A stretch of DNA of 64,000 nucleotides, from assembly GCA_963575745.1 (NCBI GenBank), contig CAUYUJ010014771.1, forward strand, positions 281,501 to 345,500, given 5' to 3'. Both the position numbers and the translations under genes were made by a program. Under the pieces are notes generated by a model, which was given only the letters and a program-made list of their open reading frames with translations, ran no database searches and was not told the origin of the DNA. This stretch comes from Prorocentrum cordatum. Lineage: Eukaryota > Sar > Dinophyceae > Prorocentrales > Prorocentraceae. Positions 23,695 through 38,775 of this stretch are shown one piece after another (position 1 is the first letter of the stretch; each line of letters starts with the position of its first letter).

Positions 23695-24794
23695 AGCTGG
23701 CGGAAAACCGGGGTGGGTCACTACCGGTTCGAGCCCCTCCCCCCCCCTCCGGGAAACCGGGGGGGGGGTCACTAACGGTTCGAACCCCTCCCCCCCCAAC
23801 TCATCATGAAAAGGGGGGGGGTCACTACCGGTTCGAACCCCCCCCCCCTCGAACTCGAAAACCGGGGGGGGGTCACTGCCGGTTCGCCCCCCCCCCCCCC
23901 CAGCTCATCATGAAAAGGGGGGGGGGTCACTACCGGTTCGAACCCCCCCCCCCTTCGAACTCGAAAACCGGGGGGGGTCACTGCCGGTTCGAACCCCCCC
24001 CCCCCCCCCGAAAACCGAGGGGGGGTGCGGACAGTGGTGGGGACGGTGGTGGTGGGGACAGTGGTGAGGGGACAGCGGGACAGTGGTGGGGACAGTGGGA
24101 CAGTGGTGGGGACGGTAGTGGTGGGGACAATGGTGAGGACAATGGTGGGAACAGTGGGGACAGTGGGACAGTGGTGGGGACGGTGGTGGTGGGGACAGTG
24201 GTGTGGGGACAGTGGGAATGTGGTGGAAACAGTAGGACAGTGGAGGGTACAGTGGTGGTGGGGACAGTGGTGAAGGCGGTGGCGAGGACGGCGGTGGGAC
24301 AATGGGACAGAGGTAGTGGGGACAGTGGTGGGGACATGGGGACAGTGGTGGGAACAGTGGGACAGCTCAGCGGTTCGAACCGGTAGTGACCCCCCCCTCC
24401 GGTTTTCGAGGGGGGGGGGTTCGAACCGGTAGTGACCCCCCCCCCCGGTTTTCGAGTTCAAGGGGGGGGGGGTTAGGGGAAGGGGGGGTTGCCGGGGGAG
24501 AGGGGGGGGGGTCCAGCACGGGGGGGGGGGATTTTCTGAGGGGGGGGGGGATCCCCGGGTTCCGGAGGAACAGGGCAGCAATTTTCCACAGTAAAGCGGC
24601 GGTGGATCACGCTCTCTCCATGATTTGGATCGAGCGTGTTCTACCGCTGCTGGCAGAAAACCGGGGGGGGTCACTGGGGGTCCCCAGCCCGTCCCCCCCC
24701 GCCCCCCTCTTTGACACCCAGGGTGGGTCACTACCGGTTCGAACCGCTCCCCGGTTCGACCCCCTCCCTTTCGAAAACCGAGGGGGTGTCATTA
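23695..24794. repeat. G/C-homopolymer palindrome array, left part
   Basis: Six copies of GTCACTACCGGTTCGAACC (about 23717, 23769, 23821, 23871, 23926, 23978), 50-55 bp apart and separated by C runs, AAAACCGGGGGG and CATCATGAAAAGGGG. Then comes a GGGGACAGTGGTGGGGACAGT minisatellite (24020-24370), then inverted copies GGTTCGAACCGGTAGTGACC at about 24372 and 24419. GGTTCGAACC is itself palindromic and resembles the Pol III B box. The array continues beyond the transposon at 36894. Confidence 0.8.
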
Positions 24795-24820
24795 CTTGGA
24801 TGCCCGCGGTGGTTGGTTAG
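24793..24820 (+). repeat. Left TA duplication and terminal inverted repeat
   Basis: TA at 24793-24794, then CTTGGATGCCCGCG and a further 12 bp that match the other end with three mismatches. Subterminal motifs ACTTAGCCAACCA (24862-24874) and TAAGTAGGTTAGC (24972-24984) follow inward, among other CTAAGTTGG-like units up to 25000. Confidence 0.75.
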
Positions 24821-25037
24821 CACATCGGGCGAATAGATGGCGCATAGCATCTACTTGGCACACTTAGCCAACCAGGATGCTAAGTGGGTTGCGCGGTTGA
24901 AGCTAAGTTGGATACCAAGTGCAGTTGGCTATCCAAGTTAACTTGGTTTGAGTGGTTAGCCCAAGTTGGGCTAAGTAGGTTAGCCTTGGGCCTTTTCCTG
25001 CGGATAACTACTTGAGCCGCTCCGAAACAGTCCAAAA

Positions 25038-25352
25038 ATGAGGAGGAGGAGGAGGAGGAGGAGGAGGAAGAGGAGGAGGAGGAGGAGGCGAGGAAGGGGA
25101 GGCGAAGGAGGAGGAGGAGGAGGGAGGAGGAGGATCGAGGAGGAGGATCGAGGAGGAGGAGGAGGAGGAGGAGGAGGCGGAGGAGGAGGAGGAGGAGGAG
25201 GAGGAGGAGGAGGAGGAGGAGGAGGAGGAGGAGGGAGGAGGAGGAGGAGGAGGGAGGAGGAGGAGGAGGAGGAGGAGAGAGGAGGAGGAGGAGGGGGAGG
25301 AGGAGGAGGAGGAGGAGGAGGAGGAGGAGGAGTAGGAGGAGGAGGATTCCCC
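25038..25352 (+). repeat. (GGA)n microsatellite
   Basis: About 315 bp of GGA triplets downstream of the transposase gene, just inside the left end of the element. Poly-Leu, -Gly and -Arg frames over it are artefacts. Confidence 0.9.
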
Positions 25353-25530
25353 TCTCCCTCCTCCTTCTACCCCTGATCAGCGGCAGCCTCAAGTGTTTTC
25401 TCTGACTGCATGGTCCCTGCAGCTTCAACAACTAATCCGTGGTAGCGGAAGCAATGCGATGCACTTGTCGAAATCCCTGTCCCCATCCCCTTTGATAGTC
25501 AACGCCCTCCCCCATGACATCATGGAATGT

Positions 25531-27552
25531 CTAAGTCAACCTCCTGGCCTTCAGCCTGCATGGAGTGAGAACGTGCGAAAGCTTTCCTATAGCAGTCCTC
25601 CAAAAAATGCATGGTTCTATGATGTTCGCAGTCGGGAAAAGCGCTGGGGCATGGCTAACCTCGCACCGCACACTGTGTGCATGTGCATCCTTGGTTGGCC
25701 ATTTTGAAATACAAGACAACGTTTCATCACCTACACGCATGTGGAAAAGAACTTGGCCGAACTGAGGCTGGAGGCCAGAACCTGCTTCATACGCAACAAC
25801 GTCGTTGACCTGGACCACTCGGTCTCTAGATCGGGCGGCATTTGAGCACCACACGTCTTGTGCGGGCAGTGCGACGCCACATGAAATTGCAGCGTCCTTG
25901 ATCTTGTTCGGCGCTGGCCTTGGGTCGACCAAGCCATTGCCGAGGACTGGTGCCCTCAAGTCAAACAGCGCCTGCACAGTGGCCTCCTCTAGGAGGCCTC
26001 TGTCGTATGAGCATGTGTTATGTCGTGATGTGGCAAATCTCTTGAACAGACGATGTTTCCTTTCATGTAGATGTGTCGATAGAAGGTACCCATCCCTACG
26101 GAATTGTTCAGGCAAGTGTATTGACATGTGCATCTTTGGTTTCCACAGGGTGGTGGAGTACGCTGTCTGATGCTTGCCGAGATGATCTGAAATTGCCACT
26201 TCGAGATCATCTGCTGTCACAGTCCCAGTGTTTACAGCAACTAGCAAGGTCACGGTATGACATAACGCCAAAGCGCTCTGGACTTCCTTCACACATTTTC
26301 CACTGGGAACTAAGACATCTTGCAGAAACTTCTGGAGAACAGGAGCCATTGATACCATTTCGCTAGCGCACCCAGTCAATTTACCGTCTTCGACCACGTT
26401 CTTTGCATGACCATATGCTTGAGGCCACGCCCAGTGTTGCAAGTACGTGTGAAACGTTCCAAACGGGATCCCGATCTGACTTCCAATTGTTTTTAAAAGT
26501 TGTTTGACCTCGTTCACAAAAACTCCGTCTATAAAAAATACATGCATCCAATCGTATGCCCAAATCGACGCCAACTTAATGTCCAGGTCGTCGTCTTGCA
26601 GCATTGCGGTGGGAAAAAAGTTGAAACCGAAAAGGGTTTCTAATCGCTGCAATTCGTCTCCATTGTTGTCTGCTGCTGCCTGTCGAAGTCTACGCTGTAC
26701 TCCATTGAGGCTTCTATCGCTGTGCTGCTGAAACATGCTCATGTCGCAAATAGCTGCGCTGACTAAAAACCCAGTGCTGTCGGGGAGGAGGCTGCTCTTG
26801 TGCGAGACGCAATTTGCGCACATCGCGCAAATCTTATGGGCCCCTGCCCCTTTGGCATGAGTTGAAAATTTGTGAGCTCGCTCGTCTTGAAGCATCAGCG
26901 CCAATGCGCCGAACACTATTCTCGGGGAGTTCTCCCCAGGAATCTGCATCGCCACTCCATGCCGAAGGTCGGGTTTCGAGGGCAGCCCGAAAAAACTCTT
27001 CAATACATGCTTGAAAGCTTCGCCCATTCCGCCTGGCAGCGAGTCCACTACCTTCGATCGTATCCCTGCAGCTGCGAACCAAAACTCCTCATGAGCCAAG
27101 GCAGGCCATCCGAATTCTGCCACCGACCAATATATAGCCTGTATCCGCCGCTTGTTGTTATCAGACAATGGGTTTCCAGGCGTCACCTCGTCTGAATAAA
27201 TCAAGATGCTGATCTTATTGCTGCTCTCATTCAGCACCGATTGCAGAAACGTCCTAAAGCTGTCGCTCTCGGCGCATGCTGCTTCCAGGAATCCCAGCGG
27301 GTGTTGTACCCATATATCCACAGAGCCTCCATTGTCATCTATTGGCACCTCTGTCTTCTGCAAGAGGGGCCCGAAGCTGGTGGACTGGAACGCCAGTGAT
27401 TGCCTGGCCCTTTGCTGCGTCGACCTACTGAACGCGTCAGGCAATCCATGTAGACGAACCTGCTCCAAAAGCTTTGCCATCCCATTCGCTGTTACGTGGG
27501 AGTGTTTACCATAGTCTGTTAGCTTGATGCGCTTCCGAGTTGGCTCCGCCAT
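25531..27552 (-). CDS. DDE-transposase-like protein (KDZ/Plavaka-like)
   Basis: 673 codons from the ATG at 27552; the frame extends 19 codons further up only through a TTG, and a spliced-leader relic lies 60 nt above this ATG. Likely the enzyme that cuts and joins the element. A strand ISILIYSDE places Asp121 where DDE enzymes have their first acidic residue. A zinc-like CAMCANC is at 242-248. AYDWMH (Asp334) matches the second-Asp DxxH motif of Plavaka/KDZ-type transposases. HERKHR (Glu497) is a candidate third acidic residue. The DEVTPGNPL and FWFAAAGIRS context is typical of dinoflagellate proteins of this kind as I recall them; no search was run. It is the last gene of the leftward cluster. 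The frame is intact. Confidence 0.65.
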   Translation of the reverse strand: MAEPTRKRIKLTDYGKHSHVTANGMAKLLEQVRLHGLPDAFSRSTQQRARQSLAFQSTSFGPLLQKTEVPIDDNGGSVDIWVQHPLGFLEAACAESDSFRTFLQSVLNESSNKISILIYSDEVTPGNPLSDNNKRRIQAIYWSVAEFGWPALAHEEFWFAAAGIRSKVVDSLPGGMGEAFKHVLKSFFGLPSKPDLRHGVAMQIPGENSPRIVFGALALMLQDERAHKFSTHAKGAGAHKICAMCANCVSHKSSLLPDSTGFLVSAAICDMSMFQQHSDRSLNGVQRRLRQAAADNNGDELQRLETLFGFNFFPTAMLQDDDLDIKLASIWAYDWMHVFFIDGVFVNEVKQLLKTIGSQIGIPFGTFHTYLQHWAWPQAYGHAKNVVEDGKLTGCASEMVSMAPVLQKFLQDVLVPSGKCVKEVQSALALCHTVTLLVAVNTGTVTADDLEVAISDHLGKHQTAYSTTLWKPKMHMSIHLPEQFRRDGYLLSTHLHERKHRLFKRFATSRHNTCSYDRGLLEEATVQALFDLRAPVLGNGLVDPRPAPNKIKDAAISCGVALPAQDVWCSNAARSRDRVVQVNDVVAYEAGSGLQPQFGQVLFHMRVGDETLSCISKWPTKDAHAHSVRCEVSHAPALFPTANIIEPCIFWRTAIGKLSHVLTPCRLKARRLT

Positions 27553-27611
27553 CCATGCTTCACCCAAAACCGCTGAGGGAATTCTATGGGATGTGCGTGC
27601 TGGCGCCAACG

Positions 27612-27631
27612 TTGAGCTAGACAGCTACGGA
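27612..27631 (-). other. Spliced-leader relic upstream of transposase
   Basis: On the minus strand TCCGTAGC, then TGTCTAGCTCAA. It matches the dinoflagellate spliced leader at 16 of 21 positions with one deleted base, and lies 60 nt before the transposase ATG. Confidence 0.55.
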
Positions 27632-27639
27632 GAATAGTG

Positions 27640-28063
27640 AGGATGACGTGTTGCTTTGTTTTTTTTTGGGGGGGGGGGATTGCGACATAGCCCCTTGTGT
27701 TCACCCCGACATTCACGTGGCATTTTCGTTTTTGGGTGTTTCCGTTCGTCTTCGTTTGATGCGTGGCGTTGTATGTTTTGTTGCATTTATTTGGGACCGA
27801 ACTTACGTTGCGATTGTCACGAATTGCTGTCGCTGTTGCTGCTACTGAGTTGGATGCTCGAGCTGCTACCCTAAAGCCACGGACCGATGAGATTGACAGA
27901 AAGGCCGATGTTTCACAAGTGGGGGTCCGACCGTGTTGCTGCAAACCGAATCTATCTCAATGGCCAACAACGCCCACTCGCAGCAACCCCAGCTACGAAG
28001 TACACGTGCAATATGTGATATTAAGACACTCGTCGGCGGCCAATGCTGTTGCATGAAGACTAT
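27640..28063. other. Intergenic region inside the element
   Basis: About 420 bp between the transposase leader and the last exon of the neighbouring gene. It contains a T/G run (27656-27680) and no gene that I can support. Confidence 0.4.
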
Positions 28064-29983
28064 CTACATGCCCCCATGTTTGCTGAACACAGAAGAGGCT
28101 GCACGGTACGCGGCACCAGCCACAGAGCGGCATTCCTCATCAGACAGACCCAAAGAGCGAGCTGCGGCCTTTGCGCCTGAGTAAGCACGAGAGGTAAACA
28201 AGTTGAGGGTCCTGCCTTTGCAGTCGCAGGGCTTCAGCCACCTGGTGAAGATGATGATACCTGGCGCCGCAAGTTGGGACTCAGAGAGACGCGGATCTGT
28301 TACATGAAAAAAGAACGAGGCGGAGGATGAGGACGAGGAGGAGGAGGACAGGAGGGGGAGGAGGAGCAGGAGGGTAGGATCAGAAGGGGAGAACGTGAAG
28401 GAGCACGATGGGGATGACGGTAAGCAGAGGGAGGCCACGAAGAGAGGACGGGAGGTCGTGGCATGTGGAAGTAAAGGGTCGCTCAGCACACCACCATGCT
28501 TTCAGAGTGTGATGAGAGAAGCAGTGTTGCAACTCGTAGTTCAGCAATACACACGTGCGTGCACACATGCATCATGCTAGGCCGAGTCTGCGACAACAAT
28601 GCAAGGGGTACCCTTCTTGGTCTTCACGCTGGTCTTGGGCTTGGACGCGTCCGTGCCCTCCCCCTTGTGCTCGCAAGCCTTGGCCGTGGCGGCCTTGGCT
28701 GTCGGATTGGCCTTTGCCTTGGCTTTGGCTTTCCCCTTCCCCTTCGCCTTCATGACCTGTTTCGCCTTCCCCGCGAGAGCGCTCCCACTCGCAGCAGCAG
28801 ACGCGAGCAAGCGATCCTCCAGCTCAGTAGCCTCGTCTACCGCGTCCTCCTTGGCGGCGTCCACGGTGGGGAATCCTCCGTGCACGGTGGGGGCGTCATC
28901 AAGCGGCGCGGGAATGCATTGAGTAGCCGCAGCAACAGGTGGTGAGCCCGAAGTCGAAAGGCTTGCCGAGCTCACCGCAGACCGAGGAGCAGGGGTAGTT
29001 GGCGATGGCGAGGCATACTGGCGGGCATCCAGAGCCCTCCGAGTATTCGCGAACGTGAGGTTCACACCTTGCTCGTGCGGGTTGCCACCCTGGTTGCCAC
29101 CCCCGACCTGGCCGATCAACGCCTGCAGGCTCTGGAAGAACGGGAGCATTGCACCGTGCAGCGCTGCAGCTTGGTCGACAGCAGGTTGCGCAAGTTGAAG
29201 AGCAGTTCCAGGTGCAGCGCCACGCAGCTCTTGGCGGAGTCCAGTGTGCGTGCTTCTGCTGGGGATGCTCTCCATCTCGGCACCAAGGACCTCTGCGGCA
29301 AAACCTCCAGGCACTGGACCATCAGTCGCTTGGTACGCGAAGTCCTGGACGTGCTGAGGGAGCATCCTGGGATCGACGGGGTACTTGGTCATATGTGTGT
29401 GCGGCCACCGAACAGCGCGATCCAGCGCCTTGATCTCCTTCACCAGCTGGTTCCCAAGCTCCTGCTTCCCCTTGAAGCTCATGGACAGCATGTTCGACTT
29501 GATTATAATGCACGCTACTGCGCGCTTCTTGAGGTCCGCCGATGGGCACACAAGCCCGAGGCGATACATGCGCATCGCCAGTGCGCTCACTTTCGGAGGA
29601 AGTGCGTAGTCATCGTTAGCAACAATGTCCCACTCCTGTGTGGTGAAGAAGTCCTCGATGTGGTCGCACGTCTGGAGCTGCCTGGTGACGGTGGGCTGCG
29701 CGCGGCTGGATTCGGACATCTTCTCTGCAAGTGCGTTGGCCAGCTGCGTTGTCTGCTCCGCGGTCCATGGCCCAGTGACAATCTCCTTGGATACAGCGGT
29801 CGTCGCGTCGACCGATAGGTTCCCAGACGAAGCGATCTGGTTGCACAGTGCTCGTACTTGTGATGCCAGAAGGGCGTCGCGATCAACCCCAGCAGCAGAC
29901 TGGGCATTGACAAAGTGGACGCGTTGCCTCACGCTGGCGATGAGCGCGTCGGCTACGTCGCCATGGGAGGCTGGCGATGCCAT
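28064..29983 (-). CDS. Element gene 2, unknown function, two exons
   Basis: Predicted exons 28612-29983 and 28064-28176 on the minus strand, giving 494 codons. The single long frame runs into a stop at 28577 after GTPCIVVADSA. However, a GT donor after AAGAAGG (28612) and a TACTCAG acceptor (28177-28183) join in phase to KKGAKAAARSLGLSDEEC, a more protein-like end. The start is the ATG at 29983, 67 nt below a spliced-leader relic. I recognise no named domain. Residues 95-190 hold a conserved-looking core with FFTTQEWD and RLGLVCPS; the middle is Ala/Pro/Ser-rich; the C-terminus is Lys/Ala-rich (KGKGKAKAKAKA), suggesting nucleic-acid binding. The 435-bp intron contains a CTC/GAG triplet tract. 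Confidence 0.6.
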
Positions 29984-30049
29984 TACAACTCGGTCAAGCT
30001 TGATCGACAAAACTGGTGGTGTGCACTGTCGGCAGTACAGCCTGACGTA

Positions 30050-30070
30050 GTTGAGCCAAAACGGCTGAGG
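30050..30070 (-). other. Spliced-leader relic upstream of gene 2
   Basis: Minus strand CCTCAGCCGTTTTGGCTCAA, then C. It matches the dinoflagellate spliced leader at 17 of 21 positions without gaps, including all of TTTTGGCTCAA. Confidence 0.7.
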
Positions 30071-30071
30071 A

Positions 30072-30665
30072 GGGGGAGGGGGGAGGTGGAGGAGCAGGAG
30101 GTCGGCGTAGCAGAAAAAAACTGTAGGACACCATGACGGTGACGGTGGATCTCTCTTGGAGGAGGGTGAGGGGGTAGCAGGAGGGAGCGGCACATACAGG
30201 GAGATGAGCTTGCATGCAGGAGGGTGGGCCTCAGAGGGAATAGAGGACGGCGTGCGCATGCGCTGTGTCAATCGCCGAAGTAGGGAGAGCTCCGCAAGCC
30301 ATATCTCATGGGTTCTGTCGTGCATTGAAGTGTCAAGCCGCCCCTGTCACAAAACAGCCCCTCCCTGTTACCGTGCTCTCTCATTCCTTTTCGCTATGTT
30401 GGTGCTACATGCATTGTGCTTGCTTCGCAATCGTGACCTCCCCATCCTTCTCTAACTATCCTCCCTCTCCCTCCTCCCCACTCCTCTGTTATTGTTTGGT
30501 CCGTCCTCATCCTCGTCCTCATCCCTCCTTGCTCCCACTCCTTATCCCTCATGCCCCCGCGCCTCCTTGCGCCAAGTCGCCTCAATATTTGATGTAGTGC
30601 AGACGCATTATGCGCTGCGCAGGGCTGGTAACTTACACCGCACAGGCGTGACCACATCTGACAAC
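30072..30665. other. Intergenic region inside the element
   Basis: About 590 bp with a CTCC-rich stretch at 30470-30560. No gene, domain or RNA recognised. Confidence 0.4.
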
Positions 30666-30667
30666 GC

Positions 30668-30890
30668 GTTGGTGCGAGTTCCACCTGTGGAGTTCGCACC
30701 GTTGTGTGAGTTCCACCTGTGGAGTTCGCACCGTTGTGCGAACTCCACCCGTTGAGTTCGCACATGCAGTCATATGGGTTCGTTGTGCACACGGTGCGAA
30801 CTCCACGGGTGGAACTCGCACGGTTGTGCGAACTCCACGGGTGGAACTCGCACAGCGGTGCGACTTCCACGGGTGGAACTCAAACCAGCC
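30668..30890. repeat. Palindromic minisatellite
   Basis: Six to seven units of about 28-30 bp, each a near-perfect inverted repeat. Examples are GTGCGAGTTCCACCTGTGGA with its continuation GTTCGCAC, and TGCGAACTCCACGGGTGGAA with CTCGCAC. Unit orientation changes around 30760. On one strand it would form a row of hairpins. The short ORFs reading VELARLCELHG are its translation. Confidence 0.75.
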
Positions 30891-31190
30891 TCAATCGAGG
30901 CATCAGTTGCGAGTCGTGCGCTCGCATGGTGGCGACATCTAGATGTTTTTTCATCAGCATGTGAGCTACCAACATGATGGGAGACGACGTATCTAGTATC
31001 CTGCGGTCAGCATGCGCCTACACATCAGATAGACCACAAGAGGGCGTGAGCCCACTCAACTGCCACACTTGAAGCTACCGTGCAACAGGCAAGCACACGC
31101 GCACAGGCGAACCCGATGCATGCAAATGGGCACAACGTGCAGGCAATACCCCAAAATCACAGCACGGTTGATTTCCAATTCAGAGCAGAC
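30891..31190. other. Spacer before gene 3
   Basis: 300 bp with no recognisable feature. Confidence 0.4.
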
Positions 31191-31889
31191 TTAGTCGAGA
31201 AGGTACTTGCGACCCACGTTGGGATCCCTGTGGTGTGCATCATACCACGCTTCGAGTACTGACACAAGCTTATCGCACCGATCCTGTAGGTCAGGCCCTG
31301 GCTTCAGCTTGAGGCTCTTGACCTTCCAGCTCATTGAGGCGAAATCGAACCACTTCGTTCGGACCGAATGGCGATATTCAACCCACTCGACCTTCTCGCT
31401 GTTCACCACGGGATTGAATGGCGTAGACTCTGGCACCTTAGGGCACATATTGAGTATATTGAGGTTCTCCATGGTGAGCTCGATGAAGAGGACGTTCCTG
31501 TGGTTGGCACACGTGAGGACAAACACGTCGTGGCTGACGTCGTCAGTGGTCTGGACCGTCACGACCACGAAGTCCGATATCTCATCGATGAGGTCCTTGC
31601 GAGGGCGCTTGCAAGGCTGAGCAGGAACGCCTTCCTCAGCCAAGGGGTCATCGTCCACCACAGTCTCAACTTGGCTCATGAGATATTCCACCTTGATATT
31701 GCGAAGGCGAGTGAGCTCGTCGACCATGCCGAACTTCCCGCCAACGAATTTAACGAATCGGTGCTCCGAGCGGCAGCATGGGATGAAGCGACGGTCTCCA
31801 ACAATTTGTGGCTTCACATACCATGTGTTGGCAGCTGTGGCTGGGGTCGAAGCAGAGACCATTACGAACCCATCTTCCATCGACGCCAT
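31191..31889 (-). CDS. Element gene 3, unknown function
   Basis: 232 codons, intact, from the ATG at 31889. A second ATG lies three codons on, and the frame extends upstream only through the spliced-leader relic via a TTG. Family not recognised. The N-terminal third reads MVSASTPATAANTWYVKPQ, then a Cys/Arg motif FIPCCRSEHRF. A middle basic patch CKRPRKD could be a nuclear signal. The C-terminal half is a mixed alpha/beta-looking region (FVVVTVQTTDD, VLFIELTMENL) followed by YRHSVRTKWFDFASMSWKVKSLKLK and a helical end. Its place between the other leftward genes suggests a helper role in the same element; that is inference only. Confidence 0.6.
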   Translation of the reverse strand: MASMEDGFVMVSASTPATAANTWYVKPQIVGDRRFIPCCRSEHRFVKFVGGKFGMVDELTRLRNIKVEYLMSQVETVVDDDPLAEEGVPAQPCKRPRKDLIDEISDFVVVTVQTTDDVSHDVFVLTCANHRNVLFIELTMENLNILNMCPKVPESTPFNPVVNSEKVEWVEYRHSVRTKWFDFASMSWKVKSLKLKPGPDLQDRCDKLVSVLEAWYDAHHRDPNVGRKYLLD

Positions 31890-31933
31890 CTTGCAAGGAC
31901 ACACCTGAAGTGGATGCCTGCTCGTCCAGATTG

Positions 31934-31955
31934 TTTGAGCCAAAATGGCTTCGGA
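31934..31955 (-). other. Spliced-leader relic upstream of gene 3
   Basis: The clearest full-length relic in the window. On the minus strand it matches the 22-nt dinoflagellate spliced leader at 20 of 22 positions (TCCGAAGCC, then ATTTTGGCTCAAA), 44 nt before the gene 3 ATG. Confidence 0.85.
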
Positions 31956-32458
31956 GGAGGACGGGAAGGAACATTGGAGTTGGATGATATGTGCGAGGAT
32001 GGATGGGTGAGGACGGAGGACGCATCAGGAGGAGTGCCTTATGTTCCTCCTTCTGTCCTTCTTTGCAGTTCTGCCGAACCCATTTCTAGTGTCGGAGGCC
32101 ACTGCAGGCCTAGGCGCGGGGTCGATCAGTGGTCAAGCCCTCTTCCCTACAAGTACTACAGACCCCCCTGCATGTATTTGCATTGCGGTTGCGAGTATGT
32201 TTGCGATTGCCACGGCGACCGTCAAGTTTTTGCGTGGTGCGCAGGGTCCACGTGTTACCACCAATGCCCTCGCCATTGCGACTGTTGTTTCGATGTATAG
32301 TACCAGCGCTACCATTGCCACTACTACCGTCATTACAATTAAGCCTAGGGGTGCTACGGCTATTGCTCGTTCTAGGGCTACCATTATTGCTGTTACAGTT
32401 GCTGCTGCTGGTGCTATTACGACTGCTACTACTACCACTACTACTATTACTACCACCG

Positions 32459-32514
<56 letters not shown>

Positions 32515-33383
32515 GCTGCGACTGCAACGCTGCGACTACTTCTCCTACAGCGTTCAGTAACACTGCTCCTGCTGCACTATCGCTGCTATTGCTGCTACGG
32601 CGACTGTTATCATACGTACTGTCGTTCCCACTCGTATACTCCGAGCCCTTCTACTGCGACACGTGCACCTGCTACTTTTCACCTTGCATCCTGCTACCGC
32701 ATATCATTGCTGTTGCTGATGCTCCTGCATTGTGCTACTACCGTTGTTCAGTCGATGTGCTGTGCATATGCTGATGCACTTGATCCGACGACAGTTAGTG
32801 TCGATCGCACCCTTTTGGATGACTACCACCGCTATCGCTACACCGCCTGCTGCCACCCATGATGCTATCATAGCTACCGTGATGCTTCTACTGCTTCCGA
32901 GTTCATTGGTTGGGCCGCCGTTGATGAGATGTCATCTCTGAGTCGGGCCAGCCATCTCGTTCGAAAAATACATTCGCACACGGGTCAACACTAAAGTTGC
33001 AATGCTGGTGCCAGCGGTAGAGAGCTCCCGCCCATTCTTGATCTCACCTTTGCCATTGCCCGTCACCCTCTCTCTCGCTCTTTCTCTGTTACCCTCTCTT
33101 TTGTCAACTCCCATCTGCCTCCCAACCCCTCTACCTACGCGAATAAGCCACACCGCGCCCCTACGTCAGAGCGGTCTCGAGCTGGCACCGTGCATTCGAC
33201 AGAGGCCGCACATGCCCTCAAGGCGACCACGCGAGACAACACTAAACTGGCTGGCTTCACTGGTGACCATGGCGTGAGCGTGCGAGGGCGAGAAGTGTAA
33301 TGTGCGCAACATGTATGTGACATGCGTGCGGAATGGAGGAGTGTGGGGGGAGGGAGCCATGGTCGGACCTAGAGGGTTTCAAA
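31956..33383. repeat. Intergenic spacer with (TAC)n microsatellite
   Basis: About 1.4 kb between genes 3 and 4. It contains a degenerate GCT/ACT/TAC triplet region (32280-32640) with a nearly pure (ACT)n core at about 32430-32515. The 273-codon + frame across it (Thr/Ala-rich) is composition-driven. No gene is supported. Confidence 0.65.
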
Positions 33384-34381
33384 TCACGCCTTCGCTCGCT
33401 TAGGAGCGCCGCCCCCACTGCCCACGGAGGCTCTCTTCGGGGTCGGGTCTACTTTAGGAAATGGAGGCCTACACAGCACAGTCCCTTTCTTGATCGGCTT
33501 GGGGTTTGTGAGGTAGGGGATCTCAACAGACAAAAGCGCGCCAGCCTCAGTAGACTTACCATGCGAAACCGTGCCGTTTAGCTGAACTTTCATTTTGCTG
33601 AACTCTAGGTTCGGTTCATCCCCCTCGGGCACGATCCAAAATGGAACCACGAGCTTAGTCTCACCACCATGGTTGAAATCAGTCTTCCGGCTTATGTAGC
33701 AATGCGTGCCGCTTCGATTGCCAAGGATAGACACAACTATGCAGTTGTTGGGTGCTTTAGGGCCGATAGAAACAAGTGGCGTCAGTGGGATCAATATCAC
33801 ACCATGCTTAGGGTAATCGGTCGTCGCGGACACCTTCGAAACAGTCGGCCTCGAGCTGAGAACGTATTCGATGCTCACCTTCGCGTTGTAGGCATACGTA
33901 GCGTTGGTGAGCGCCAGTTTCACCAGAGCCTTCATCTCCTCGTTCGCAATATCTGCATGCTCCTGCAGCGGGTGAGAGGGACGAGGACGCACGCTTGTAG
34001 GATGAGTAGGACGGTGACGCTGAGTGAACCACGAGGGTCCTCTCATTCACATCCTCCTCCTCCTCCTCCTAGTCCTCCTGCTGCTTCTGCTGCTGCTCCT
34101 CCTCCTCAGTATCTTCCTCATCCATTTTCCCCTGGCCTCATCATCCTTCTCTTCCTCCTCCTCATCCTCCTCATCATCCTCCTCCTCTACGTTCGTCCTG
34201 CTCCTCCTGCACATCTGTATCCTCTCCCTCTCGCCCTGTGAGCGTCCAGAGCGGACGCCCCGTCAGCCTCGATGGTCACGTGCTCTGTCTCCATGAGCAC
34301 CTCTGGGGGGCGGCATTGCGAAAATATTGGGACAGTTGAGGGTGATGAGGGGGGTTTGCTAAGATGACGAACGGCAGCCAT
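33384..34381 (-). CDS. Element gene 4, unknown function, GC-AG intron
   Basis: Predicted exons 34235-34381 and 33384-33962 (49 + 192 codons, 241 residues). The second exon alone has no good start. Exon 1 begins with ATG (MAAVRHLSKPPS) and ends ALDAHR. The 272-bp intron starts GCGAGAGG and ends CCCGCTGCAG, and the frame joins in phase 0 to EHADIANEEMKALVKLALTNA. GC donors are known in dinoflagellates. Family not recognised. The protein has a beta-rich middle (HGVILIPLTPLVSIG, CIVVSILGNRSGTHCYIS, TKLVVPFWIVPEG) and a basic tail ending GGGAPKRAKA, a possible nuclear signal. A possible but weak spliced-leader trace (TCTGGCTCA) lies just above the ATG. Confidence 0.55.
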
Positions 34382-34633
34382 TGCGAGGAAGGACGGTGAG
34401 CCAGACCTTGAAGTCGATAAAGGCAGTCATCGTGGGGAGGATCAGGAAGGGAATGGAGAGAAGGGCACGGAGAAAGAAGGTGAGGAATCGGGGTGGCGAT
34501 GGCAACGACGACGGAGTCAAGTTCGGATGTGGGGAAGGCCCCTCTAGAGTAAGAGCAGAGACCCCAACGCTATATCTAGTGGCCTTCGGCCCATCCGCAA
34601 GAGCAGAACCCCCCAGCATTATATATTGGAGAC
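34382..34633. other. Spacer between genes 4 and 5
   Basis: 250 bp. A short ORF reads through it but shows no family features. Confidence 0.35.
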
Positions 34634-34653
34634 GCCAGCCTCATGAGGCTGGC
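34634..34653. terminator. Perfect 20-bp palindrome at 3' end of gene 5
   Basis: GCCAGCCTCATGAGGCTGGC is a perfect inverted repeat with no loop and overlaps the stop codon of gene 5. It could form a cruciform or a 3'-end RNA hairpin. A role in termination is only a guess; eukaryotic Pol II genes do not normally use such signals. Confidence 0.35.
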
Positions 34654-36350
34654 TTTTCCAGGGGCCACCAACAAAAGAAACATGAAAGGGGCCACCAAAC
34701 ATTAATGGAACAAAAACATACATTGGGAGAGGGCGAACTTGTTTTTTTTAACCGATGCGCCTTGTACTCGTCGACCATCTTGGAAACCAGTATCTTGAAC
34801 GGCTTCGGCGTGAACTTGTTGCCCGTGTCCGTCAGCTTCATCACAGTGGCCTCGCCGCCCATGACGTTCTGGATGATGTACTTCCTGGTCTCATCGTCGA
34901 CGGCCTGGATTTTAGCTCCTTGCACGAAGCCCAGTTCGGCACAGCTTTGAAGGCCGTCGTCCTTGAACTCCCTGATCGCGCCAACGCACGGCGCCTTCTC
35001 GTCAAGCTTAGGCTCGTAGTTCCAGGGAGGTGTCAGCTCCTTCGCTGCAGGTGCGATCGCGTACACGTCCTCCAGCAGGGATTGCTGTACCTCCCCCAAG
35101 GTGGCGTAGTGACGTCTCGATCTGCATTTCTTGTTGTGCACTGTCATAACGCATCGGATGTCGAAGTCATGGATCAGCTTCTTCTTCTTACCAATCGTGA
35201 GGCAGGTGATGGTATTCACGAAAGTCCGAGCTGCCTTCATCATGGTAGCTGCTGTGATGCATTGCGGCTTGAGCTTATTCTGAATTGAGAGAACATCAGT
35301 AGACGAAAGAAGTTTGCTCTCGTTGCCCCTGCAGTGCGCCTCGGGCGCTGTCATGCTAGCCTTGATTGTAGCGGTAATGTAATCAACACCTTGAGCGAGT
35401 TGGACGCTGCCGAGTGCTTTCCAGAGGGACCCTGGAATGTGACGTCGGAACTTCAACGAACATGCAAATTCTTGAAGCTCTTTCAAGTATGATGCATTCT
35501 CTCCTCCAGACCACTCCTTGACGTAGAGACTCATGCCTTCGACGTCGCCCTTGAGCTCGGAGTTCGATTTCACCAAGTCCTTGCAGAGCAACTCCCACTT
35601 CGGGTCGGCGTGCATCTTGTAATTCTTTGTGGCAATGCGATGGATGCGCAACAATGTTTGCATCTGTGTTTGAACTTGGCGTGCGTTGTGCGACTGGTTG
35701 CCTGCTTCTTGAAGGAAGCTCGGTAGGTCGGGGCACTCCGCTTCCACCTGGTGGCGGATGATAACCCACGGAATTCCATCTCTCAATGGCGGCCCGTATG
35801 TTGGGCAGTAGCTGATAAGTTTCTCCATCGTCAGTTTCCCGTCCTCGTTCGCGAGGTCCTCGATTGTAGTAGCGCAGTTGCCCAGCACACAACGAAACGT
35901 AGCATTTGTGTGGGAACAACACACCGTCAAGTATCTGAGGTTGTGACGCTCCATGGCAGGCAACATGTCGTCGGACATCTCATGCAATTTCTGTTGAAAC
36001 CTGAGCTGTTCATCGAATTTGCTTGCGTCGGGCGAGACTTCGAAAGCCGTCGCGCCAGCACATTCTTGCATCGAAAATCCTGCCTTCGCGATCTCTTCCA
36101 ATAAAGTATGGACGTCTTGGGCTTCCAGGCCTTGCCCGAATCTGTTATCTCCATGGCATCCGAGGAAACCAGGCTTGACAATTTCAGTGTATGCTAAGTT
36201 GTTGGAAAGAAGCCGATGCACAATATCGTTCGCTGTAGCCTTTTTCTGCTTGTTCGTAATTTCTACATCGCCCATGTTCGAAAGAGTCTTGTTGATATCT
36301 GCAGCGATGGTCGTCAAAGTCGATTTCAAACTGTCGCTAAGGTCCGACAT
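34641..36350 (-). CDS. Element gene 5, unknown function, 569 residues
   Basis: 569 codons from the ATG at 36350 (MSDLSDSLKS); the frame extends further up without a better start. First gene of the leftward cluster. Not recognised as a named family. The N-terminus is helical (DINKTLSNMGDVEITNKQKKATANDIVHRLLSNN). Cys/His residues cluster at about 140-170 (CCSHTNATFRCVLGNC). A central block reads YVKEWSGGENASYLKELQEFACSLKFRRHIPGSLWKALGSVQLA. This resembles a recurring dinoflagellate protein type that I remember as hypothetical, but no search was run. The last 25 residues (CFCSINVWWPLSCFFCWWP) look like intron read-through after MVDEYKAHRL, so the true 3' end may differ. Confidence 0.55.
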   Translation of the reverse strand: MSDLSDSLKSTLTTIAADINKTLSNMGDVEITNKQKKATANDIVHRLLSNNLAYTEIVKPGFLGCHGDNRFGQGLEAQDVHTLLEEIAKAGFSMQECAGATAFEVSPDASKFDEQLRFQQKLHEMSDDMLPAMERHNLRYLTVCCSHTNATFRCVLGNCATTIEDLANEDGKLTMEKLISYCPTYGPPLRDGIPWVIIRHQVEAECPDLPSFLQEAGNQSHNARQVQTQMQTLLRIHRIATKNYKMHADPKWELLCKDLVKSNSELKGDVEGMSLYVKEWSGGENASYLKELQEFACSLKFRRHIPGSLWKALGSVQLAQGVDYITATIKASMTAPEAHCRGNESKLLSSTDVLSIQNKLKPQCITAATMMKAARTFVNTITCLTIGKKKKLIHDFDIRCVMTVHNKKCRSRRHYATLGEVQQSLLEDVYAIAPAAKELTPPWNYEPKLDEKAPCVGAIREFKDDGLQSCAELGFVQGAKIQAVDDETRKYIIQNVMGGEATVMKLTDTGNKFTPKPFKILVSKMVDEYKAHRLKKTSSPSPNVCFCSINVWWPLSCFFCWWPLEKPAS

Positions 36351-36407
36351 GCCTAAGAATATGGTGGTGGCGGCAATTGAGAAACGCGAAATCAAACCCA
36401 ACATCAT

Positions 36408-36425
36408 ACCTCAAACGGCTATGGA
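36408..36425 (-). other. Degenerate spliced-leader relic upstream of gene 5
   Basis: Minus strand TCCATAGCCGTTTGAGGT matches the first 18 nt of the dinoflagellate spliced leader at 13 positions, 57 nt before the gene 5 ATG. Weak alone; supported by the same arrangement at three sibling genes. Confidence 0.4.
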
Positions 36426-36429
36426 ATGG

Positions 36430-36895
36430 CAACAATGATCATGATAGTGGCTTCCGTTACATCGAAACGCAGCCATTTCTATGATGAATCCGTCGGGTTG
36501 GTGGCCAAAAATGTAGCATTGCATAGCAGAAACCATAGCATATCATGCAACAAACCTACTTCGCTATCTCAGCTAACCGTGGTTAGCTATCTGGGTTTGG
36601 GGTATACTTACGCCGCGCGCTAACCTACTTGGGGGGTGGTTGGCTAAGTACCCGAATCAAGTTAGCGGACATAGGGTATTCTGTTTATAATGCTCGCCTA
36701 AATACCCTCCCCTACTTCGCGCAGTTCGCTAAGTGAGCGATCCGAAAAGACGCTGGGGTAATGAGAATAGCACACATACACCTCAGACATAACACTTGCA
36801 ACCTACGAACAACATTGTTGAAAGTCGCTTGAAACATACTTACAACATGTTGCAATCACGCGATCTACTTACCAAGCAGCGCGGGCATCCAAGTA
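36430..36895. repeat. Right subterminal region, TIR and TA duplication
   Basis: Contains inverted copies of the left-end motifs: GCTAACCTACTT (36619-36630) and TGGTTGGCTAAGT (36637-36649), plus GCTAACCGTGGTTAGC, a perfect palindrome at about 36571. The terminal repeat is 36868-36893, followed by TA at 36894-36895. No gene. Confidence 0.7.
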
Positions 36896-38262
36896 CCGGT
36901 TCGAACCCCCCCCCTCGCCGCCGGCAAACGATTCCAGCTCTTCGGGACAGTCGGACAATGGTGGGGATGCTGGGACAGTGGTGGGAACGGCGGTGGTGGG
37001 GGCAGTGGTGCGGGGATTGGGACAGTGGTGCGGACACTGGTGGGGACGGTGGTGGTGGGGACAGTGGCGAGGGGACAGCGGGATAGTGGTGGGGACAGTG
37101 GGACAGTGGTGTGGACCGTAGTGGTGGGGACAGTGGTGAAGGCGGTGGTCGGGACAGTGGTGCGACAGTAGTGCAGTGGGGAAAGTGGCGGGGACAGTGG
37201 GGACAGCGGGACAGTGATGGGGACAGTGGGGGCGGTGGGACAGCACAGTGGGACAGCGGCGGGGACAGTGGGACAGTGGTGGGTAGAGTGGGGACAGTGG
37301 GACAGTGGTGGGGACCGTGGGAAAAGTAGGGAGAGTGGGACCGTGGTGGGACACTGGTGGGGAGAGTGGGGACAGTGAGACACTGGTGGGGGCACTGGTG
37401 AGGACAGCGGGGACAATGGTGGGGACAGTGGGACAGTGGAGGGGACGGTGGTGGTGGGGACTGGTGTGGGGACAGTGGGAATGTGGTGGAAACAATGGGA
37501 CAGTGGTGGTGGGGACAGTGATGAGGGCGGTGGCGAGGACGGCGGTGGGACAATGGGACAGAGGTACAGTGGGAACAGTGGTGGGGACAGTGGGGACAGT
37601 GGTGGGAACAGTGGGACAGCTCAGTGGGACAGCGGCGGGGACAGTGGGACAGTGGGGACTGTGGGACAGTGGTTGGGGCCGTGGGGAAAGTGGGGTGAGT
37701 GGAACCGTGGTTGGAACACTGGTGGGGACAGTGGGGACAGTGCGACAGTGGTGGGGGCACTGGTGGGGACAGTGGGGACGGTGGTGGGAACAGTGGGGAC
37801 AGTGGTGGTGAGGACAGTGGTGCTGGGGACAGCAGTGGGGGATGTGGTGCGGACGGTGGTAGGGACCGGGAGTCGTTTGCTGGCGGTGAGCGTGGGGGGG
37901 AGAGGTTCGAACCGGTAGTGAACCCCGCGGCGGTTTTCTGGGAGGGGGTTCGAACCGGTATATAGTGACCTCCCCCGGTTTTCTGGAGGGGGGGGGGGGG
38001 GTTCGAACCGGTAGTGACCCCCTTCTGGTTTTCAGGGGGGGGGGGGAGGGGTTCGAACCGGTAGTGACCCCCCCGGTTTTACAGAGGGGGGGGGTCGAAT
38101 TAGTAGTGACCCCCTCGGTGGGTCGGTGGGGGGCTTTGCTGGGGGGAAGGGGGGGGGTCCAGCAGGGGGGGGATTTTCGGAGGGGGGGGAACCCTGGGTT
38201 CTGGAGGAAGAGGGGGATCATTTTTCGCAGTGAAGCGGCAGTGGATCACGCTCTCTCGATGA
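36896..38262. repeat. G/C-homopolymer array, right part
   Basis: Continues the array broken by the transposon, starting CCGGTTCGAACCCCCCC. Most of it (36940-37860) is a GGGGACAGTGGTGGGGACAGT minisatellite with variable unit length. Then come five copies of GGTTCGAACCGGTAGTGACC or variants (about 37904, 37951, 38001, 38050, 38094), separated by G runs and CCGGTTTTC. It closes with GGATCACGCTCTCTCGATGA, also seen at 24605 in the left part. Val/Gly- and His/Pro-rich ORFs are artefacts. Confidence 0.8.
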
Positions 38263-38775
38263 TGTGTTATGTTATGTTATGTTATGTTATGTCTGGTATG
38301 CGATGCTATATTGTTTTCTGATGTTTCATGATACGCATTGTTATGTCATGGTATGTTATGTTATGTCGTGCTATGTCTACTATGTTGCGTTATTCGTTTA
38401 TGATATGATAGGACATGTTCTGTGATGTTATGTCATGGTATGTGTTGTAATGGTACTGGCATGTGATGTTCCGTCATGTTATGTCATGGTCGTGTTTCGT
38501 TATGATGTATTATAGTGTGGCATGCTGTGTTCTGTCGTGCTCGTTGCTATGCTCGGTTGGTGTCTTATGATATGCTCTGAACGCTGTGCCATGATATGAC
38601 ATATTCCGCCAAGGAGTGTTATGGTATGTTCATTTATGTCATGGCATGGTATGTTATGTCGTGTTATGTTCTGCAATGTTATGCCATGATGTGCTTCGTG
38701 TTGTTGTATTACGCTGTGCCTGTCATGGTATTGCTATGTTATGTTCTGTCATGTTATGTTGTGTATTGCTGTGTT
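38262..38775 (+). repeat. Degenerate TGTTATG/CATGT repeat tract
   Basis: About 510 bp of 5-bp-like TTATG units with frequent changes (TGTTATGTTATGTTATGTTA at the start). No coding evidence. Confidence 0.75.

Follow-up and report, generated by a model that had tools for sequence, protein, structure and literature searches.

What kind of mobile element is the 12-kb unit of five leftward genes in a 64,000-nucleotide stretch of the Prorocentrum cordatum genome (contig C13922, positions 281501-345500; hereafter the window), and do its genes belong together? What is most secure in our results is that the unit is mobile, keeps a conserved set of five genes, and makes a pyrimidine-purine (YR) target duplication. 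Very probably it is, in addition, a cut-and-paste DNA transposon that is autonomous and was mobile recently, represents a new lineage, and encodes a RAG1-like transposase. The five-gene cut-and-paste interpretation is supported by independent insertions with clean boundaries, a fixed gene order, and a predicted RNase-H/RAG1 fold.

Ends and flanks of the element

The boundaries are defined by the following features, in window coordinates:

24793-24794: left copy of the target-site duplication, TA (likewise TA at the copies on C1974, C17677 and C1447)
24795-36893: transposon, 12,099 bp, with five leftward open genes
24795-24820, plus strand: left terminal inverted repeat, 26 bp, CTTGGATGCCCGCGGTGGTTGGTTAG
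24816-24985: left subterminal motif cluster, GCTAAGT / GTTAGC in both orientations, 7 matches
36572-36734: right subterminal motif cluster, 6 matches
36868-36893, minus strand: right terminal inverted repeat, with a matching end and TA on C1447
36894-36895: right copy of the target-site duplication, TA

The sequence CTTGGATGCCCGCGGTGGTTGGTTAG, read from 24795, matches its inverted partner ending at 36893 at 23 of 26 positions, the first 14 being identical, and TA stands on both sides. A degenerate 26-mer with up to three mismatches finds only these two sites in the window and none in 100 shuffles. The 26-bp inverted ends proposed in the sequence-only reading are borne out. Twelve TA-adjacent 26-mer pairs in the window score at least 22/26, namely the element ends, one microsatellite pair, and ten pairs within flanking CCGGTTCGAACC-type repeats. 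The inverted subterminal motifs proposed at the same time are also present: the clusters lie at both ends in both orientations, with 13 motifs in the 581 bp that make up the two termini versus 4 in 11,100 interior bp, the motifs having been picked after inspection of the sequence.

Compared by eye, the flanks of the element look like the neighboring repeat unit ...GTCAC-TA-CCGGTTCGAACC, the arrangement that duplication of a single TA would leave. Repeats of the CCGGTTCGAACC and GGGACAGTGG types occur on both flanks (23700-24790 and 36896-38320), and the element appears to sit within one repeat landscape. Between genes 2 and 3 lies an inverted repeat (30670-30887) with 94-nt arms that are 84% complementary and spaced by 30 nt; it is built of repeated GTGCGAACTCCAC-like units and is present in the other near-identical copies too.

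Near-identical copies and probable recent mobility

Genome searches covered the 4.128-Gb assembly of 21,875 contigs. With the transposase as query, three further copies of 99-100% identity were found, on C1974, C17677, and C1447. Since those on C1974 and C17677 have a common left flank, the four copies, window included, mark three sites. The left end is preceded by TA in all four, and the right end of the C1447 copy matches that of the window and is followed by TA. Near-identical copies with clean boundaries at independent sites support the recent activity that had been suggested from the open genes.

The copies differ in detail. The C1974 copy has a split gene 4 and diverges from the window sequence inside gene 5, at window position 35976; the gene-5 matches in C1974 and C17677 span residues 136-588 only, their right ends lying beyond the sequence reached. 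The common left flank and identically truncated gene-5 match of this pair (loci L001, L003, L061, and L062) may reflect unmerged haplotypes or a segmental duplication. Between the window and C1447, the transposase has 4 differences in 692 codons, all scored as non-synonymous; in the 2.8 kb reaching from the left end up to where the transposase starts, this pair differs by 13 mismatches in addition to gaps. As a measure of purifying selection, ratios of non-synonymous to synonymous change rest on too few changes within clusters, and synonymous change is saturated between clusters.

Target duplications in related families

Three further families, with transposases about 49% identical, were compared at both ends. 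The termini are CTTGGATCG / CTTGGAAAACC in family A, where the two ends agree only over the first six bases, CTTGGATGCTC / CTTGGATGCCC in family B, and CTTGAATCGG / CTTGTATCGG in family C. All four families, the window's included, have CTTG..CAAG termini. At each of 13 paired insertions (13/13), the duplication is 2 bp long, identical left and right, and a YR step: TA at seven (window, C1447, C21195, C15164, C6113, C9036, C20680), CA at four (C20171, C14048, C13466, C15212), and TG at two (C18543, C18977). This count leaves aside C15589 (TG on the right, the left being masked), C13242 (left TG, right unmatched by the pattern), C1974/C17677, and three loci covered at the left end alone: C19761 (TA, flank as in C21195), C2345 (TG), and a second C13466 locus (CA, with a flank common to the first). 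The TA duplication originally described is thus correct for this element, and the window's own family has TA at its three sites, but across relatives the duplication is YR rather than strictly TA; the CA and TG cases rule out TA-specific insertion for the group as a whole.

Coding capacity

The coding features, all on the minus strand, are as follows:

25531-27609: transposase open reading frame (ORF), 692 aa (673 from Met20)
28064-28231: conserved coding segment, about 55 aa and a stop, by tblastn to diverged relatives (41-51% identity)
28577-30325: gene 2, 582-aa ORF (468 from Met115), Lys/Ala-rich C-terminus
31191-31943: gene 3, 250-aa ORF (232 from Met19), basic KRPRK stretch
33384-34046: gene 4, 220-aa ORF
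34641-36407: gene 5, 588-aa ORF (569 from Met20)

Five leftward genes had been proposed, and five minus-strand ORFs are indeed found. Stop-free runs of 697, 589, and 589 codons exceed the longest run in 300 simulated sequences (363); the two shorter ORFs are unexceptional by length alone. With a codon model derived from the transposase alone, the true frame receives the top score in each of the four companions, for the 250-aa ORF by a slight margin over one antisense frame (0.019 versus -0.010). Other, overlapping ORFs of at least 100 aa occur in the same list and are taken as incidental. The earlier gene lengths of 673, 232, and 569 residues are reproduced when these ORFs are read from a later ATG, whereas 494 and 241 are not, the corresponding genes being read here as 582 (468 from Met115) and 220 residues.

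The segment at 28064-28231, between gene 2 and the transposase, probably represents gene 2's terminal exon, in which case genes of the element can be spliced; alternatively, it is a sixth small gene. The C-terminus of gene 3 forms a three-strand-plus-helix module in the predicted model, with weak AP2-like matches, and gene 5 was aligned with two relatives.

The size of 12 kb, the several genes, and the inverted repeats are also what an integrated virus or Polinton-like element would offer, but we consider such an origin highly improbable. None of the five window proteins reaches a Pfam cut-off, and no capsid, polymerase, or integrase match is among their Pfam results; PHROG gave sub-threshold matches only, including one called tail assembly chaperone (E 0.25), and the best viral-structure match has an E value of 0.09. 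A family-alignment search for a viral or prokaryotic source yielded 25 pattern matches in IMG/VR and 47 in GTDB contigs, none confirmed, and 0 of the 25 IMG/VR matches encode a transposase relative. The RAG1-like enzyme model and the 2-bp duplications likewise speak against a virus.

A conserved five-gene set

Co-occurrence was scored at the best 64 of 3,860 first-look transposase candidates, the 3,860 being unconfirmed as copies, and companions were counted within 20 kb upstream on the transposase strand. The companions themselves were scored as the best 75 of 119,831 candidates for gene 2, 150 of 454 for gene 3, 150 of 798 for gene 4, and 74 loci (77 matches) of 1,657 for gene 5, the window's own included in each case.

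All four companions lie upstream at no fewer than 18 of the 64 transposase loci and at least one at 56 or more, with individual counts of at least 27 for gene 2, 44 for gene 3, 38 for gene 4, and 37 for gene 5. Gene order is violated at none of the 64 loci, and four matches are on the wrong side or strand. This fixed order holds among relatives just 26-50% identical, and the companions, outside near-identical copies, are 26-45% identical to the window's among the matches listed. Seen from the companions, 10 of 75 gene-2 loci have none of genes 3-5 upstream and 14 of 74 gene-5 loci lack both gene 3 and gene 4 on the downstream side, again among the matches listed. The five genes therefore co-occur in a common order at diverged loci, and the interpretation survives the refutation by separately placed genes that the sequence-only reading had named.

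The sequence-only reading had left a choice between a complex transposition system and cargo. That the companions are host-derived cargo picked up by transposons, outside the machinery, now seems improbable. It would fit the fact that no companion has a named transposition function, and that the companions are incomplete at many of the 64 loci and wholly lacking at 8, among the matches listed. Cargo is, however, expected to differ between families, whereas here the identical four families recur in the same order and orientation at 26-45% identity. Because of this conservation, the companions can be regarded as functional parts; the multi-gene set is upheld, the cargo suggestion is not, and the companions appear to be long-established, conserved components rather than recent cargo.

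One transposase family (L024, L025, L026, L029) comprises four copies that agree across all 1.5 kb fetched beyond the gene and have no companion among the matches listed. This family may be a lineage that lacks companions or is built differently, or else the copies may belong to a single larger block that was duplicated.

Predicted fold and probable catalytic residues of the transposase

The predicted transposase model has a RAG1-core-like DDE domain at about residues 47-561, RAG1-like over some 450 residues, followed by a BAH-like domain at about residues 556-677; both assignments are well supported by prediction. The DDE transposase inferred from the letters alone thus has a DDE core in its predicted RNase-H/RAG1 fold, which passes the second refuting check named in that reading. 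By prediction, the candidate triad consists of Asp140 in strand 132-142, Asp242 right after strand 230-241, and Glu516 in helix 514-527, and all three are conserved in 26 of 26 sequences. The motifs C261xxC264 and H494xxxH498 fall in the 274-residue interval between Asp242 and Glu516.

The second catalytic residue had been assigned to Asp334 (Asp353 in the 692-aa numbering). Asp242 is probably the second catalytic Asp instead, because it follows a core strand and precedes the first Cys of the C(2)C pair by 19 residues, the spacing of Asp708 to Cys727 in RAG1. By the same strand position and spacing Asp353 probably does not have this role; with it as second D, the C(2)C pair would lie before the second D. 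The residue is nevertheless conserved as claimed, and since it is invariant, a structural role is likely.

A Pfam scan of 12 family members with E values up to 10 returned a single transposase model, DDE_Tnp_1_4, in one member (E 0.014). The UniRef name of a Prorocentrum cordatum relative (P0003), RNA-directed RNA polymerase, is apparently a mistaken automatic label for a transposase.

Relation to known transposons

Tc1/mariner elements duplicate TA only and have a short D-to-D/E spacing, whereas CA and TG occur among the relatives here and the second interval is long. Academ, Starship, KDZ, and other large DNA transposons share with this element, by description only, the large size and several genes; their duplications are different, and no transposase Pfam model reaches a cut-off here. 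En/Spm elements resemble this one in their subterminal regions, where short motifs cluster in either orientation, and in encoding more than one protein.

PMC12730594 describes the CMCT clade as EnSpm, Mirage, Chapaev, Transib/RAG1, Plavaka, ESTA, and Lanisha, with C(2)C and H(3-4)H motifs between the second D and E, CA..TG termini in most, and target duplications of 2-5 bp. Broad membership in this clade is supported by the fold with its DDE triad in the predicted RNase-H core, by the motifs, provided that Asp242 is the second D, and by the duplication length; the CTTG..CAAG termini weigh against it.

Compared lineage by lineage, the element is like RAG1, RAGL (ProtoRAG), and Transib in its predicted core fold and in the order D, D, C(2)C, H(3)H, E, and unlike them in its BAH-like tail, its four companions, its CTTG rather than CAC ends, and its 2-bp YR duplication, where RAGL/Transib duplications are given as 5 bp (PMC7204232). 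EnSpm/CACTA, for which CAC termini and a 3-bp duplication are described (PMC12730594), likewise has the CMCT motifs seen here; the element differs from it in ends, in duplication, and in its five genes. Owing to duplication length and ends, membership in RAGL/Transib and in EnSpm fails. A Pfam scan of the window's companions, which for genes 2, 4, and 5 covers the sequence level only, gave no kelch or PHD match that would indicate a RAG2-like partner.

The nearest description found is that of ESTA (PMC12730594), EnSpm-like transposons that duplicate TA and were named from three fungal families carrying a TET/JBP gene. ESTA resembles the present element in having a RAG1-like transposase, CMCT motifs, and a 2-bp duplication that includes TA. 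That the element is instead a divergent member of a named CMCT lineage (ESTA, Mirage, Plavaka, or EnSpm/CACTA), its four extra genes being a local elaboration, is possible but rather unlikely. This explanation draws on the TA duplications and RAG1 similarity of fungal ESTA, on the 2-3-bp duplications given for Plavaka, and on the C(2)C and H(3-4)H motifs common to CMCT members (all PMC12730594) and present here. Against it stand the CTTG..CAAG ends, the YR duplications extending beyond TA, the near-total lack of transposase matches in Pfam, and the absence of a TET/JBP domain from the Pfam matches of the five window proteins. The element, a dinoflagellate one where ESTA is described from fungi, is probably of a new lineage. 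A separate superfamily outside all named CMCT lineages, with a RAG1-fold transposase and built-in BAH reader, an obligate five-gene machine, and YR insertion, has in our estimate an even chance; the BAH domain would then replace the separate PHD reader of RAG2, and the superfamily rank is conjecture.

A link to introners, some of which make 3-9-bp duplications (PMC9860276), was dropped for want of support.

A model for transposition

In the transposon that we favor, the transposase would bind the CTTG ends and use Asp140, Asp242, and Glu516 around a zinc-stabilized helical insertion. By analogy with RAG/Transib, the element may be excised through a nick and a hairpin on flanking DNA, a chemistry that is conjectural, and it would be joined to both target strands at pyrimidine-purine steps, the two joining points being staggered by two bases. 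The companions would act in transposition, in roles that are likewise conjectural. In En/Spm, TnpA binds the subterminal arrays, and by analogy the 250-aa protein most likely binds the GCTAAGT/GGTTAGC arrays here. The BAH-like tail probably anchors this complex on chromatin, and for genes 2, 4, and 5 complex assembly or regulation is a default guess.

Distribution and significance

A search of the open-access literature by title or abstract opening found no description of an element of this kind from dinoflagellates. The alga Aureococcus is reported to have RAG1-like and RAG2-like genes that are linked (PMC9435367), so the mere presence of a RAG1-like element in a protist is no novelty. The EukProt protein P0001, labeled Pyramimonas, is identical at 666 of 666 residues to transposase locus L015 on C18977 and was for that reason set aside as a green-algal relative; contamination of the data set or a very recent transfer is possible, and the protein is unused as evidence of distribution.

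The element group might be among the larger mobile families of this giant genome. Because near-identical copies occupy separate sites, activity, empty sites, and gene requirements can be tested directly. If our interpretation is true, it would add to the RAG1-type enzymes that of a multi-gene dinoflagellate transposon, remote from animals, and would offer a comparison point for the gain of chromatin-reading parts by RAG1-like transposases; a conserved five-gene cut-and-paste element would, moreover, challenge the view of such transposons as one- or two-gene units.
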